Shown piece by piece: positions 26,418-32,401 of a DNA stretch of 64,000 nt. The position numbers and the translations under genes were made by a program. Numbering within the stretch: the stretch's first letter is position 1; each line of letters opens with the position of its first letter. The notes under the pieces were generated by a model that saw only the letters and a list, made by a program, of their open reading frames with translations, ran no database searches and had not been told where the DNA came from. The DNA is from an uncultured Erysipelotrichaceae bacterium (GTDB taxonomy: Bacteria; Bacillota_I; Bacilli_A; RF39; UBA660): the NCBI GenBank assembly GCA_902761685.1, contig CACWLI010000003.1, positions 48,222 through 112,221 of the forward strand, written 5' to 3'.

Positions 26418-26975
26418 ATGAGAAGTTATATAAGAAGTAGAATTATAATGATTATAGAGATAATGATAGTATTATTTATTATTTTTTTCAGTATAAAAAA
26501 AGAAAATAATAATGTATCATCTCTTTCAGTTGCAACAAATAATAGTTTAACTAAATCATTAGATATAAAAGTTATTCAAGAAAATCAAAATGAATTATAT
26601 GCTCAAGGAACATATAATCCTGTATATACATTTGTAGGAGAACTTACAGGATATGCTGGGGATTGCCCTTTATGTTCTGGTTACTTAGCTTGTCCTCCAA
26701 GAACTAACGTTTTAAAAAGTGGAATTTATTTTAATGATTCTACATATGGAAAGGTTAGAATAGTCGCTAGCAGTAAGAATTATCCTTGTGGAACAATACT
26801 TAAATTTAATGTTAAAAAATTATCTGAAGAGCCAATGATTGCTATAGTTTTAGATAGAGGAGTTAGTGGAAACGTAATTGATTTGTTAACTGAATCAGAA
26901 GACTATGCCACAAAGCATGTTGGGAGAGTTAGAAATTTAGAATTTGAAGTTTTGAGAGAAGGATGGAAAAAATGA
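26418..26975 (+). CDS. Membrane-anchored 3D-domain protein (YabE-like, RlpA/double-psi barrel)
   Basis: One N-terminal membrane segment (about 9-26) leads to an extracellular part. The C-terminal 100 residues form a 3D domain: GELTGYAGDC..., YPCGTILKF and IVLDRGVSGNVIDLL, where the aspartates give the domain its name. Such domains belong to resuscitation-promoting or lytic-transglycosylase-like proteins. The G5 and DUF348 domains of full YabE are absent. Four cysteines (CPLCSGYLAC and YPC) are unusual. The second ATG (26418) has the better spacing to AAGGAG. B. subtilis yabE lies at the same place. Confidence 0.85.
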   Translation: MRSYIRSRIIMIIEIMIVLFIIFFSIKKENNNVSSLSVATNNSLTKSLDIKVIQENQNELYAQGTYNPVYTFVGELTGYAGDCPLCSGYLACPPRTNVLKSGIYFNDSTYGKVRIVASSKNYPCGTILKFNVKKLSEEPMIAIVLDRGVSGNVIDLLTESEDYATKHVGRVRNLEFEVLREGWKK

Positions 26976-27757
26976 AATTTGAATATAAGAAATCCTTAGG
27001 GCAAAACTTTTTGATTGATAATAATATAAAGAATAAAATAATTGAATCAATTAATCCAACTGAAAAAGATTTAATAATAGAAATTGGACCAGGAGCTGGT
27101 TCTTTAACTAAAGAATTAGTCAAAAAGAATTGTGATATTATTTGTTTTGAAATAGATAAGAGATTAGAAATAGAATTAGATAAGATAAAATCGAATAATC
27201 TAAAAATTATTTTTGAAGATTTTTTGAAAGTAAACTTAAATGATTATATTGAAAAAAAATATGAAAGATTATTTTTTGTTGGTAATTTACCATACTATAT
27301 TACAACAGCTATTATAAATAAAATAATAAATGAATCAAATCCATATGAGATAACAATAATGATTCAAAAAGAAGTAGCACAAAGATTTATGGCAAAGCCA
27401 AATAGTAAAGCCTATGGATCTTTATCTATTTATTTGCAGTATAATTTTGATATATCTAAAATATGCGATGTTAGTAAAAATTGTTTTGAACCAAAACCAA
27501 ATGTTGATAGTACAGTAATTGTATTAAAGAAGAAAAAGAATAAAAGTAAAGTAATAAATGAAGAACAATTTTATAAATTAATTAAAGATTCATTTAGACA
27601 AAAGAGAAAAAATTTAAGAAACAATTTAAAAGAATATAATTGTGATTTAATAGAAGAGATTTTAAAATCATTTAACAAAGATTTATCAAGAAGAGCTGAA
27701 GAAATTACTATAGAAGAATTTATAGAAATATCAAACAGAATGAGCCATGATTTTTAA
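26972..27757 (+). CDS. rsmA: 16S rRNA (adenine1518/1519-N6)-dimethyltransferase RsmA (KsgA)
   Basis: Dimethylates two adenines in helix 45 of 16S rRNA. KKSLGQNFLID near the start, SAM loop IEIGPGAGSLTKEL, catalytic motif FVGNLPYYITT, and a C-terminal domain with FRQKRKNLRNN. I use the ATG at 26972, which overlaps the previous stop (ATGA) and is well spaced from AGAAGG. The ATG at 26963 sits on the ribosome site. 261 aa; most homologues have 270-290. Confidence 0.96.
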   Translation: MKFEYKKSLGQNFLIDNNIKNKIIESINPTEKDLIIEIGPGAGSLTKELVKKNCDIICFEIDKRLEIELDKIKSNNLKIIFEDFLKVNLNDYIEKKYERLFFVGNLPYYITTAIINKIINESNPYEITIMIQKEVAQRFMAKPNSKAYGSLSIYLQYNFDISKICDVSKNCFEPKPNVDSTVIVLKKKKNKSKVINEEQFYKLIKDSFRQKRKNLRNNLKEYNCDLIEEILKSFNKDLSRRAEEITIEEFIEISNRMSHDF

Positions 27758-27780: not shown

Positions 27781-27809
27781 TTGAAATTTGAAAAAAAATA
27801 ATGTATACT
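27781..27809 (+). promoter_or_regulatory. Promoter of the histidine-kinase operon
   Basis: -35 TTGAAA (27781-27786), 17-bp spacer, -10 TATACT (27804-27809), 34 bp before the first kinase start. Confidence 0.75.
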
Positions 27810-27843: not shown

Positions 27844-29745
27844 ATGCAAGTTAGTTCTTACTTTACCAGCGTTGGCTTTACAATTAGTGCAATTATATTT
27901 ATGTTATTAACCATAATGGTTTATATAAAGAAAAAAAATAGTACTAATTTAAGTGGAAAAATATTTTTAGGTTTATTAATTTTAACATCTATTATTTTGG
28001 CTTTTGAAATGGTTGTTCCTTATACAATGTCAAGAATGAATGATCTAATAACACTAAATAATGTTCTTTGTAGAATATATGTATTATTAATGTATTTATG
28101 GGACTGTTTTATGTTGCTATATATTATGATAATATGTGGTGATAAAGATAATTTTAAAGAAAAATTACCAATAAAATTAATAATAACTGCAATATTAATA
28201 ATATCTTCGTTTATTTTATCATTTGCATTAGATATTGAATTTAATGGTGGTGTATTTGGTCTTCCTTATGTTGTAGGTGGTCCAGTTGTAATTGCACTAC
28301 ATATTCTATCATTTCTTGGATCATTAATAGTTTTACTTTTACTATCAATAAATATTAATAGAATTAGAAATATAAATTTAATACCATTATACATGGTTTT
28401 TATTGCATTTATCGCATCAACACTTGTTCAAATATTTTACAATTATGAAATCAATGAAACAGGACTAATTCATACTTTAGTTATCTTAACACTATTTTAT
28501 ACGGTAGAGAATCAGGATAACACATTATTGTATGAATACAGAAAATCTAAAAAGGAAGCAGAAAAAGCAAATAGAGCTAAAACAGAGTTTTTAATCAATA
28601 TGTCACATGAGATAAGAACTCCTATGAATACAATTTTAGGATTTAGTGAATCATTATTAAAAGAACCTCAATTAACTGAAGAAATAGTTAAGAGGGATTT
28701 AAAAAATATTAGTGCTGCCAGTTCTACACTATTAGATTTAATTAACAATATATTAGATATATCTAAAATCGAATCTGGTGAAGAAGTGCTAAACGAAGCA
28801 AATTATAGTTTAGAAAACTTAATTTTTGAGATTAATAGTTATATACCATCAAAGATAAATAAAGAAGAATTAAAATTTACAATAGATATTAATGAAGATC
28901 TACCAAAAGAGTATTTTGGTGATACTTATAAATTATTTAAGGTATTAACTTATATACTATTAAATGCAATAGAATATACAAATTATGGTGAAGTTAAACT
29001 AACAATTGATGGAACTTTAGTAGAAGATAATAATGTTAATTTCAATATTATTATTTCAAATACAGGACATGCAATGCTTGCTGAAAACTTTGAGAAGAAT
29101 TTTGAAGATTTCGTAAAATTAGAGAATGCATCACAAAATAATGTTGATAGTATAAAACTTGGATTAATAATTGCAAAACAATTAATTAATATTCTAGGAG
29201 GAACAATAGAATTTAAAAATGAAAAAGGAATGGGAACAAGATATATTGTCAATTTAAAGCAAAAAATTGTTAATCCAGAAAAAATTGGAAATATATTTGA
29301 AAGTAAAGAACAACAAATATCTAGTAGTAGAGACTTAGTAGATTGTACAGGTAAAAATGTTTTAATTGTAGATGATGGAGATGTCAATTTAAGAATTGCT
29401 AGTAAATATTTGGAGCAATATAATTTTACAATTAGTACTGCAACAAATGGTAAAGATTGTATTGAAATGGTAAAGAATAATCATTATGATATTGTATTTT
29501 TAGATCATATGATGCCTGATATGGATGGCGTAGCAACTATAAAAGCCTTAATTGCTACTGGTTATAAATTACCACCAATCATAGCATTAACAGCTAATTC
29601 TTATACAGGATTAGAAAATGAGTATATATCTCAAGGTTTCAGTGGTTACTTGCAAAAACCTATAAATTTTAGAGAATTAAATAAGATTATTAATTCAGTA
29701 TTTAGAGATAATGTGGAAAATTTTAATAAGGAAGAGGTGATATAA
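27844..29745 (+). CDS. Hybrid histidine kinase A: 7-TM sensor, intact His box, degenerate ATP site, receiver domain
   Basis: 633 aa. Seven hydrophobic segments in residues 5-225, then a short coil and a dimerisation domain with NMSHEIRTPMN (phosphoacceptor His255). The catalytic domain keeps its N-box (LLNAIEYT, about 370-377). G1 is NTGHAM instead of DTGxGI (Asp lost), and G2 is SIKLGL instead of GTGLGL. A receiver domain follows with acidic pair DD (about 510-511), phosphoacceptor Asp554, Thr and Lys all present. No output domain. Start at the ATG at 27844, 8 nt after GGAG. Kinase B begins 1 nt after the stop. The signal sensed is unknown. Confidence 0.9.
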   Translation: MQVSSYFTSVGFTISAIIFMLLTIMVYIKKKNSTNLSGKIFLGLLILTSIILAFEMVVPYTMSRMNDLITLNNVLCRIYVLLMYLWDCFMLLYIMIICGDKDNFKEKLPIKLIITAILIISSFILSFALDIEFNGGVFGLPYVVGGPVVIALHILSFLGSLIVLLLLSININRIRNINLIPLYMVFIAFIASTLVQIFYNYEINETGLIHTLVILTLFYTVENQDNTLLYEYRKSKKEAEKANRAKTEFLINMSHEIRTPMNTILGFSESLLKEPQLTEEIVKRDLKNISAASSTLLDLINNILDISKIESGEEVLNEANYSLENLIFEINSYIPSKINKEELKFTIDINEDLPKEYFGDTYKLFKVLTYILLNAIEYTNYGEVKLTIDGTLVEDNNVNFNIIISNTGHAMLAENFEKNFEDFVKLENASQNNVDSIKLGLIIAKQLINILGGTIEFKNEKGMGTRYIVNLKQKIVNPEKIGNIFESKEQQISSSRDLVDCTGKNVLIVDDGDVNLRIASKYLEQYNFTISTATNGKDCIEMVKNNHYDIVFLDHMMPDMDGVATIKALIATGYKLPPIIALTANSYTGLENEYISQGFSGYLQKPINFRELNKIINSVFRDNVENFNKEEVI

Positions 29746-29746
29746 T

Positions 29747-31600
29747 ATGACATTTAGTTTATTATTAACTTATTCCAGTATGGCATTCATGTTGTTGCTA
29801 ATAGCAATATATTTAAACAAACAAATTTTTAAAAATACAAGAACAAAACTATATAAATTATTAATTACAATGACTGCTGTATTCACGGCCAGTGAACTAA
29901 TACCTATTTATTCAATTGTTTATTTAAATAATTCAATTATAGAAAAAATATCATGGAGAATTCACTGGATTATTGGTATTGCATGGTTTACTATTTTCTT
30001 CTTTTATTGCTTATCAATGATAAAAAAACTAGAAGGAAAGTCTGCAATAAAAGCATTATTTAGTGATACTTTAGTAAAAATTGCATCTGGAATTATGATT
30101 CTATTTGCAATAGTGTATTTGTTTCTTCCATATTATGGTTTATCTGAAGATGGTGGCATAAATTATCTTCCTGGAAAAACTGCAATGATAATGGTAGGAC
30201 TAACATTTGTTTTATTTGGAATAATATGTTTTTTAACTCTAAAATATAAAGATAATACTACTAAGAATGAAAAACTAGCTATATTTGTAGCAATAGCAAT
30301 TTTAGCTGGAACAGTAATTTTACAATTGTTTATTAAACATGTTTCATTTATTCCACTTGGAATTAGCTTATTCATGTTTAGTTTATATTTCAACTTAGAA
30401 AACCCCGATATTACAATTATAGACGAAATAGCAAATGCACAGGGAGATATTGAAAAATCAAATCAAACAAAAACAGATTTCTTGTCAAATATGACTTATG
30501 AAATAAAAGTTCCAATGAATTTGATTTCAAGTTTATGTGATGAACTAGTAAATATGTCTACATTTGATGAAAAAATAGTAAGAGAAGATATAGAGCAAAT
30601 TCAAGTGTCAGGAAATAATTTATTAGATATAATAAACAACATATTGGATATTAGTAAAATAGAAAGTGGTAAAGATGCTCTACAAGAAAGAGAATATTCT
30701 ATTAATGATTTAATAACAAATGTTTTAAATATTGCAAAATCCAAATTAGGTGCAAAACCAGTAAAATTAGAAATGAATGTTGATCAAAATGTTTCTTCAG
30801 TTTTATATGGTGATTCTGCAAAGTTATATCAATCTTTATTAAATTTAATGGGTAATGCAGTTAAATATACAGAGGTAGGAAAAATTTCATTTAATTTAAC
30901 TAGTACAAAATCATCTGGTATGGAAAAATTACTATTTAAAATTTCAGATACAGGTACTGGAATTAAAGAAGAAGATCAAAATAAGTTATTCTCAAAATTT
31001 ACTCGTCTTGAAAATGCTGTTGAGAATGAAATAGAAGGTAGCGGATTGGGTCTTGTTATAACAAAACAATATATAGAATTAATGGGTGGAAAAGTTTGGT
31101 ACGATACTCAATATAGAGTTGGTTCAAATTTCTATATTGAAGTAACACAAAAAATTATTGATCCAACAACAATTGGTGCTTCAGCAGCAGCTACTAAACC
31201 TAATAATACAGGAGAAAAATTAGATTGTTCAAATTATACAGCATTAATTGTAGATGATAACAATTTAAATATTAAAGTTGCTAAAAGATTACTTGAAAGT
31301 TATAAATTTAAAATAGAAAGTGTTACTGCTGGAAAAGATTGTGTTTACAAAGTTAAAGAAGGAACACATTACGACATTATTTTTATGGATCATATGATGC
31401 CTGAAATGGATGGTATAGAAACATTACATGTATTAAAGAAGCTTGATGGATATCAATTGCCACCAATTGTTGCATTAACTGCAAATGCAATTGCTGGTAT
31501 GAAAGAAATGTATTTAAGTGAAGGATTTGATGATTATTTATCAAAACCTATAAATACAAATGAACTTGATAGAATTGTTAATAAATTCTTTAATAAATAA
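29747..31600 (+). CDS. Hybrid histidine kinase B: 7-TM sensor, His box lost (Tyr), intact ATP site, receiver domain
   Basis: 617 aa with the same layout as kinase A: seven membrane segments (about 5-215), ending in the related LENPDITIIDE turn. The H-box reads NMTYEIKVPMN, with Tyr251 (codon 30497-30499) in place of the phosphoacceptor His. The ATP-binding domain is complete: N-box GNAVKYT (369-375), G1 DTGTGI (401-406), G2 GSGLGL (431-436). The receiver keeps DD, Asp548, Thr and Lys. GAGGTGAT ribosome site within kinase A; the two genes are tightly coupled. It probably phosphorylates kinase A in trans (inference). Confidence 0.9.
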   Translation: MTFSLLLTYSSMAFMLLLIAIYLNKQIFKNTRTKLYKLLITMTAVFTASELIPIYSIVYLNNSIIEKISWRIHWIIGIAWFTIFFFYCLSMIKKLEGKSAIKALFSDTLVKIASGIMILFAIVYLFLPYYGLSEDGGINYLPGKTAMIMVGLTFVLFGIICFLTLKYKDNTTKNEKLAIFVAIAILAGTVILQLFIKHVSFIPLGISLFMFSLYFNLENPDITIIDEIANAQGDIEKSNQTKTDFLSNMTYEIKVPMNLISSLCDELVNMSTFDEKIVREDIEQIQVSGNNLLDIINNILDISKIESGKDALQEREYSINDLITNVLNIAKSKLGAKPVKLEMNVDQNVSSVLYGDSAKLYQSLLNLMGNAVKYTEVGKISFNLTSTKSSGMEKLLFKISDTGTGIKEEDQNKLFSKFTRLENAVENEIEGSGLGLVITKQYIELMGGKVWYDTQYRVGSNFYIEVTQKIIDPTTIGASAAATKPNNTGEKLDCSNYTALIVDDNNLNIKVAKRLLESYKFKIESVTAGKDCVYKVKEGTHYDIIFMDHMMPEMDGIETLHVLKKLDGYQLPPIVALTANAIAGMKEMYLSEGFDDYLSKPINTNELDRIVNKFFNK

Positions 31601-31660: not shown

Positions 31661-32401
31661 ATGATAAAAATTGGAGATTATGTAACAAGAAAAAAATATA
31701 ATAATGATATTTTATTTAAAGTTATTGATATACAAGAAAATATGTATTATTTGTGTGGAGTTGATCTTAGATTATATGCAGATTCAGATATTAATGATTT
31801 AGTCTTATCATCAATTCGTAAAAAAAAAATAACAATAGAATGTATAAGAAAAATCAATGTTAGTGATTATTATTATATTCCAGGAACAATTCTTCATTTA
31901 GATACAGATAAAGATTACCTAAATCAATGTGAAGAATACTATAAAAATCAAAAAATCAGATATTTTGGTATATTATTGGACATAAAAAAATTTAATAATA
32001 ATATTGAAAATCTTATTAAAAAATACAATCCAAATATTGTAGTTATTACAGGGCATGATGCATATTATAAAAAAAATAATACTTATAAAAATAGTAAGTA
32101 TTTTATAGAGACAGTTAAAACAATAAGAAAATTTAATAAAGATATTATTATTGTATGCGGTGCATGTCAAAGTGATTATATAAACTTAATAAAATCAGGT
32201 TCTACTTTTGCCTCAAGTCCAGCACATATAAATATTAGTGCACTTGATCCTGCTATTATTGCTTCGTACCTAGCTTTAACTGATAAAAATGATGTGATTG
32301 ATTTAGAAGATATTTTATCTAAAACAAAATATGGTAGTGATGGAATTGGAGGAATTAGAACAAAGGGGTGTATGATTAGTGTATATCCTAGAAAGGAATA
32401 A
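31661..32401 (+). CDS. yabG: YabG sporulation-specific protease
   Basis: 246 aa that follow B. subtilis YabG: IGDYVTRKKYNNDILFKV at the N-terminus, PGTILHLDTDKDYL, NIVVITGHDAYYKK, IIIVCGACQSDY, FASSPAHINISALDP and GIGGIRTKG. In Bacillus it is a coat-associated cysteine-type protease made under sigma-K that trims coat proteins before crosslinking. It is followed by veg 2 nt downstream, as in B. subtilis. About 45 aa are missing relative to Bacillus in a poorly conserved linker. Confidence 0.93.
   Translation: MIKIGDYVTRKKYNNDILFKVIDIQENMYYLCGVDLRLYADSDINDLVLSSIRKKKITIECIRKINVSDYYYIPGTILHLDTDKDYLNQCEEYYKNQKIRYFGILLDIKKFNNNIENLIKKYNPNIVVITGHDAYYKKNNTYKNSKYFIETVKTIRKFNKDIIIVCGACQSDYINLIKSGSTFASSPAHINISALDPAIIASYLALTDKNDVIDLEDILSKTKYGSDGIGGIRTKGCMISVYPRKE

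Follow-up and report, generated by a model that had tools for sequence, protein, structure and literature searches.

The window analysed here, a stretch of 64,000 nucleotides (nt) from an uncultured Erysipelotrichaceae bacterium (contig CACWLI010000003.1, positions 48,222 to 112,221), carries two adjacent hybrid histidine kinase genes, A and B, whose products have lost different residues of the kinase active site. Kinase A (27844..29745, + strand, 633 amino acids, aa) and kinase B (29747..31600, + strand, 617 aa) both start with ATG, at 27844 and 29747, and their stop codons end at 29745 and 31600, the genes lying head to tail with an intergenic distance of 1 nt. In both proteins a membrane sensor is followed by DHp, CA and receiver (REC) domains, and HisKA, HATPase_c and Response_reg were matched above the Pfam cut-offs on either polypeptide. 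A and B are 33% identical across nearly their full length, which identifies them as tandem paralogues.

In A, the H-box MSHEIRT (28600..28620, within SHEIRTP) retains the acceptor His255 (28606-28608) together with an intact HExxT phosphatase-type motif, and the CA domain is degenerate: the G1 box reads NTGHAM (29059..29076), its DxGxG being lost, and the G2 box reads SIKLGL (29149..29166) in place of GxGxGL. In B, the altered H-box MTYEIKV (30491..30511, within TYEIKVP) has Tyr251 (30497-30499) for the His, and the CA domain is complete, with intact G1 (DTGTGI, 30947..30964) and G2 (GSGLGL, 31037..31054) boxes; all of these features are on the + strand. The Pfam scores differ accordingly, HATPase_c reaching 46 bits in A vs 80.6 in B, and HisKA 40.5 bits in B vs 62.6 in A. 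Neither A nor B combines an acceptor His and complete ATP boxes on the same protein, as expected of a hybrid kinase; A is the predicted phospho-acceptor subunit and B the predicted ATP-using subunit.

The motif states and the 1-nt spacing had been put forward in an earlier note, made from the sequence alone, and both were confirmed on rereading the sequence. The receiver domains (29353..29694 in A and 31232..31582 in B, + strand) are complete, as also claimed there, with Response_reg above cut-off and the Asp-Asp/Asp/Lys set kept in both. The seven transmembrane segments assigned to each sensor are plausible, but their number was not confirmed, since hydropathy (19-residue window) gave six clear segments in the hydrophobic N-terminus of A and five to six in that of B. 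The sensor regions (residues 1 to about 230) matched no Pfam family and are the most divergent part of both proteins within the window's clade. Among NCBIfam models, BarA was the top match of B, at 262.6 of 890 bits and thus far under the cut-off of that model, and the ArcB and EvgS models likewise matched the A/B proteins.

Across their DHp, CA and REC domains, A and B had low dN/dS values (0.006–0.22 in six genome pairs, by simple Nei-Gojobori counts with synonymous sites near saturation), and both proteins are under purifying selection, the losses persisting despite it. The altered motifs are not sequencing noise, since those of A recur in 120/120 of its homologues and dN/dS is low; a frameshift or sequencing artefact was considered and rejected. 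That A and B might be decaying remnants deserves next to no credence: each protein does miss catalytic residues, but full-length frames, low dN/dS and catalytic residues conserved across a wide family already contradict decay, and a pseudogene pair was likewise rejected. A fused A-B protein was also considered and rejected, as the 1709-aa frame of the related genome G330 proved to be A plus a 1086-aa B, parted by a stop codon.

Distribution and order of the losses

Homologue sets comprised the best 120 of at least 2419 matches for A, and the best 120 of at least 1909 for B, with E-values up to 1e-60. Within these sets, His was present in 120/120 A homologues and DxGxG in 0/120, the three positions reading N-G-A in 113 and N-G-T in seven. 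The 14 commonest G1 variants of A, which cover 119 of the 120 rows, fit the pattern N-x-G-H-x-M, and its N, G, H and M were invariant across 18 aligned rows. The B homologues in turn had D-G-G and G-G-G both in 120/120, and their His position was occupied by Tyr (73), His (33), Thr (5), Ser (4), Val (3) or Phe (2). The named matches (P0012, P0052, P0143, P0210; L001, L002) belong to metagenome assemblies designated 'Bacilli bacterium'. When rows of the two lists were matched as putatively sharing 26 contigs, the A of all 29 resulting A/B combinations had His and lacked DxGxG, and B had lost its His in 25 of the 29; two of these putative shared contigs (13559 and 9912 long) were verified as carrying an A/B pair.

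Adjacent pairs numbered 27, of which 26 came from GTDB genomes (A-profile searches and fetched regions) and one from the window. Left out were the second G783a pair, which meets a contig end, two intact kinases standing side by side in G783c, and the intact one that precedes the second pair of G330; G261 and G367, with A and B at the ends of different contigs, were not counted. Both kinases are intact in three pairs (G023, G148, G130). In 13 pairs A has lost its ATP site next to an intact B (G243, G253, G339, G192, G397, G412, G308, two in G330, the second pairs of G773, G785 and G783, and G780). The state of the window, with A lacking the ATP site and B lacking the His, is found in ten (G773, G785, G787, G789, G790, G783, three pairs of G778, and the window itself). 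The one further pair, the fourth of G778, has an A without His and ATP site beside an intact B. No pair of the 27 is without a usable His or without a usable ATP site.

According to the earlier note, the two losses should fall on the same partners in related genomes. This stood for A, as loss of the ATP site concerns A and never B in all homologues and pairs examined; it did not stand for B, which retains its His in 17 of the 27 pairs and in 33 of the 120 homologues. Of the two orthologue states named in that note as adverse to its proposal, B with His is thus frequent, and A with DxGxG was found in 0/120 homologues.

Some genomes hold more than one pair. G778 carries four A/B-type pairs (L197-L200). 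The A-like protein of the fourth (L200:70-3746) has its His replaced by Arg and does not match HATPase_c; its partner is intact. In G783 (L204:6836-13547) the order is A-B-A plus a fourth frame truncated at the end of the contig, which looks like a tandem duplication of the entire pair. In G330 (L160:3599-10922) three family kinases stand in a row, i.e. an intact one, an A-type (NSGHLM) and the 1086-aa B-type protein, which ends with REC and a weak Hpt match.

Of the 385 genomes in the order sample, 15 scored beyond the profile threshold of 1e-143 (at most three candidates scored per genome). Eleven of these had adjacent pairs, two had them split over contigs, and two (G321 and G364) had, at this threshold, a single intact kinase. 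Among 18 genomes from the genus of G773, 17 contained a family kinase at 1e-80, and eight had an A/B pair within the regions read. A scan of genome contigs with the A alignment, with both patterns inside the receiver domain, gave at least 80 loci, mostly other hybrid kinases of 26–37% identity; the genome of L002 served as the entry into the family. Genome sizes in the samples of the related family and genus range from about 0.7 to 1.7 Mb.

Trees were built of 138 and then of 175 rows, without the columns of the H-, G1- and G2-boxes. For the first tree, homologues shorter than 550 aa or at least 80% identical to a kept row were dropped, whereby 94 of 240 were kept in addition to A and B, and 11 of the 33 outgroup loci were used, most of the unused ones being minus-strand loci. 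In both trees all ATP-site-less A formed a single clade, as did all His-less B. On the drawn tree (138 rows), the both-intact pairs are basal on both the A and the B side, and the clade of His-less B proteins is nested within B. A and B branch alike, and the kinases of G321 and G364, single and intact, lie near the base. These are quick trees, with long branches flagged (G778c, G778d, the second locus of G330, G783b, G783c, G778e) and an outgroup that does not fall cleanly on one side of a branch. The simplest history they suggest is duplication of an intact kinase, followed by one loss of the ATP site of A and by one loss of the His of B in the lineage of the window, and every stage of that history appears to survive in present-day genomes. 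Dependence in both directions would be confined to the clade of the window, the His-keeping B proteins falling outside the His-less clade on the tree; in most of these His-keeping cases only A has lost anything.

A predicted heteromeric kinase

Histidine kinases act as dimers. From the motif states, conservation, adjacency and the order of losses on the quick tree, we infer a heterodimer, a direction of phosphotransfer and an exit route for the signal. With a probability of roughly 0.7, A and B form a heteromeric hybrid histidine kinase, in which the ATPase of B phosphorylates His255 of A in trans and neither homodimer is self-sufficient. The CA domain of B would bind ATP within an A:B dimer and B would phosphorylate His255 of A in trans, and A:A and B:B homodimers would be incapable of autophosphorylation. 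The phosphoryl group would then pass to a receiver, that of B being the more constrained, and would travel on to a response regulator by way of an Hpt protein; A, via its intact HExxT, may also be capable of dephosphorylation. After the duplication, loss of the ATP site of A would have come first and made A dependent on B, and later, in the clade of the window, the now redundant His of B would have been lost. Both the absence, among the 27 pairs, of any lacking either function and the keeping of the losses under purifying selection are predicted by B-to-A phosphorylation in a heterodimer.

The weight of the case lies on conservation after the losses, and it is carried by residue-level counts. 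Over the 22.5 substitutions/site of the A clade (69 rows), the His is altered a single time, to Arg, where the partner B is intact; the Thr of HExxT has no changes, and 68 of the 69 rows retain the N-box Asn. Over the 14.1 substitutions/site of the His-less B clade (51 rows), the seven ATP-site residues (N-box Asn, three of G1 and three of G2) have no changes, with at least five changes at the His site and 12 at the Thr site of HExxT. The His-site residues of this clade are Tyr (40), Val (4), Ser (4), Thr (2) and Phe (1), i.e. Tyr is not fixed.

It is conceivable that A still binds ATP through NTGHAM and autophosphorylates, A and B then being two separate receptors, and the conservation of N-x-G-H-x-M itself in close A homologues would agree with this, as would the N-box Asn in nearly all rows of the A clade. 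Such a reading is nevertheless very improbable: both DxGxG and GxGxG are gone, and four pairs (the second ones of G773, G785 and G783, and that of G780) keep the His of A although the G1 and G2 motifs have vanished entirely. Moreover, a His-less B would still be without an acceptor of its own.

The same counts bear on whether B may be a pseudokinase of the type of Caulobacter DivL, which would steer A allosterically or bind a phosphorylated receiver, A being charged by some other intact family kinase. DivL is reported to have Tyr at the His position, to keep all other kinase boxes and to sense DivK~P without kinase activity (PMC4211667). B is similar in that Tyr251 takes the place of the His and the other boxes are retained (in 120/120 B homologues), and relatives of the window's clade do carry other intact family kinases. 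The reading is still unlikely. The Tyr of DivL is reported in the same paper as conserved with one Ala exception, whereas the site of B is variable in orthologues, and CckA, with which DivL partners, is given there as a hybrid histidine kinase (PMC4211667), whereas the neighbour of B has no ATP site and would need an outside kinase. The gene adjoining A is B in 27/27 pairs, and the seven ATP-site residues of B are unchanged over 14.1 substitutions/site.

Domain-level divergence was compared between three groups, comprising three both-intact pairs, eight genomes in which A has lost the ATP site and B is intact, and 24 genomes or contigs from the clade of the window, in which both losses are present. 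The A/B ratio of CA distances was 1.69, 1.79 and 1.12, respectively. The value of 1.12 vs 1.69 in the controls indicates that the CA domain of A is constrained and not simply decaying, and this domain probably has a structural or regulatory part. The DHp ratio alone moves as predicted (1.49, 0.95 and 0.90), the both-intact control consisting of only three genomes. Mean receiver distances in the window's clade were 0.169 for B vs 0.320 for A (0.214 vs 0.293 in both-intact pairs), and the stronger conservation of the B receiver suggests that it may be the main next station for the phosphoryl group.

A probable signal exit and the genomic surroundings

The earlier note had proposed that the signal leaves through a phosphotransfer protein encoded elsewhere, and this gains support from an Hpt match beside the locus of the pair in ten related genomes. 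Of the 19 genomes searched, 10 had a REC-HD-GYP match (G243, G253, G339, G192, G397, G412, G308, G023, G148, G130), and in all ten it sits at the A/B locus; the match of G412 is divided between two contigs, one of which carries the pair. The Hpt match adjoins the REC-HD-GYP gene in these ten, those of G253 and G130 being just under the family cut-off. Altogether, Hpt matches were present in 19/19 genomes, 17 of them over the cut-off, and in G773, G785, G778, G783 and G780 a standalone Hpt of 119–127 aa is encoded away from the pair. Judging from this gene arrangement, the ancestral path likely led from A/B through Hpt to REC-HD-GYP.

Phosphate might instead flow the other way, the His of A taking it from a receiver or from Hpt, in which case A would be a phosphatase or sink and no kinase step would link B to A. 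The unchanged HExxT Thr of the 69 A rows and the presence of Hpt matches in every genome searched are compatible with such backward charging, and RetS is said to siphon phosphate from its partner kinase (PMC12189002). We regard it as quite improbable, because it leaves no use for the strictly kept ATP site of B once the His of B itself is gone.

The REC-HD-GYP-type regulators (L150:8756-10369 and 12 similar) read YD(I/V)G in 11 of 13 at the stretch which we take to be the position of the HD motif, and 10 of 13 retain the G-Y-P region; these proteins are perhaps a degenerate phosphodiesterase. In L232, L233 and L236 (G773, G785 and G780, respectively) the standalone Hpt gene is divergent from a gene of 672–676 aa, which Pfam assigns to the AAA+ ATPases in L232 and L236, and in L234 (G778) a similar Hpt lies beside a 430-aa AAA+ gene. 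In L211, L214 and similar loci, the gene of an intact family hybrid kinase precedes that of a distinct Hpt-REC protein (317 and 259 aa), a further way in which the genus arranges these relay parts.

Several points weigh against phosphorylation of A by B in an obligate heteromer. Strict complementarity is not universal, given the 17 pairs and 33 homologues in which B retains its His, and 13 of the 27 pairs have lost only the site of A, with B intact. The losses are one each on the tree, so that their always striking the same partner reflects descent and not independent repeats. Other intact family kinases in relatives, e.g. in the second pair of G773, could phosphorylate A. The CA-ratio test lends no support to the heteromer model, and no REC-HD-GYP match was found in 8/8 genomes of the window's genus set, nor in G330. 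Intact boxes alone are no proof of an active B, as DivL reportedly keeps its kinase motifs without activity (PMC4211667). ArcB and EvgS are described as autophosphorylating in cis (PMC4734776); the sequence does not settle whether the mode is cis or trans, since the BarA match of B is far below cut-off and ArcB matches too.

In the 64-kb window, stop-to-stop frames of at least 60 aa gave no family kinase other than A and B, no REC-HD-GYP match (E up to 1e-3) and no Hpt match (E up to 1). Upstream of A lies ksgA/rsmA (26963..27757, + strand, TIGR00755), and a ksgA/rsmA-like gene, by resemblance, is also found 5′ of A in G773, G785, G778, G787 and G789. A yabG-like spore peptidase gene follows downstream (31661..32401, + strand; TIGR02855, 222.6 bits, under the cut-off of 270.4). 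In G773, A and a B with Tyr stand in a gene order matching that of the window. A promoter-like site, TTGAAA-17-TATACT (27781..27809, + strand), precedes A but is not above chance by itself, such sites being no commoner than in shuffles (45 observed vs a shuffle mean of 37.0, standard deviation 7.2). Transcription of A and B from one promoter, as claimed in the earlier note, therefore rests on the 1-nt gap between the genes.

Relation to known kinase systems

In CheA3/CheA4 of Rhodobacter sphaeroides, described as a split histidine kinase (PMC3591291, PMC6829392), ATP use and the phospho-accepting His are placed on two proteins that make one kinase, which is also the arrangement predicted for A and B. 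CheA3/CheA4 is, however, a chemotaxis kinase divided by domain, one protein holding the His-domain and phosphatase and the other the kinase, whereas A and B each keep sensor, DHp, CA and REC, their division consisting solely in lost active-site residues. At the level of sequence, the ATP site and the acceptor His of the pair are thus on two distinct proteins, with no division into HisKA without HATPase. Up to 1.7% of histidine kinases are given as possibly split and bifunctional, counted as HisKA without a HATPase domain (PMC3591291). Pairs like A/B would escape that criterion, since both proteins match both domains.

The division resembles classic complementation experiments, in which one protein is without the His, the other without the G2 box, and the mixture works in trans. 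A BarA G2-box mutant and a His mutant complement each other in trans (PMC4734776), and intermolecular mutant complementation of EnvZ in 1991 is cited in the same paper. Those were engineered mutants of one gene, whereas the division in A/B is natural and kept by evolution.

Heteromers of related histidine kinases are described for RetS/GacS and ChrS/HrrS (PMC12189002, PMC9491836). RetS is reported to restrain GacS (PMC12189002), and ChrS became a pseudokinase only in laboratory evolution, truncated ChrS being without significant heterodimerisation there (PMC9491836); in neither is a reciprocal loss fixed in a lineage. For a Ramlibacter bacteriophytochrome a heterodimer has been hypothesised, which the authors themselves do not favour (PMC6848086).

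No report of a natural reciprocal kinase pair was found in the open-access papers searched, most subscription papers being outside this scope, and it is on this ground that the reciprocal-decay form of split histidine kinase is called new. We consider it fairly probable that the pair represents a natural, obligate heteromeric histidine kinase that arose by reciprocal active-site loss in duplicated full-length hybrid kinases, with the steps (both copies intact, one copy lacking the ATP site, complementary losses) coexisting in one bacterial family and intact kinases that were never duplicated occurring among relatives of the same order.

As each subunit has a membrane sensor of its own, the pair could need two signals together, one received via the ATP-using and the other via the acceptor subunit. 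If true, A and B would be the natural counterpart of the classic histidine-kinase mutant-complementation experiment, and would offer a well-resolved case in which a self-sufficient homodimer became an obligate heteromer after duplication, with the sequences of the intermediates known. For annotation, this would mean that kinases that look dead may be halves of live ones.

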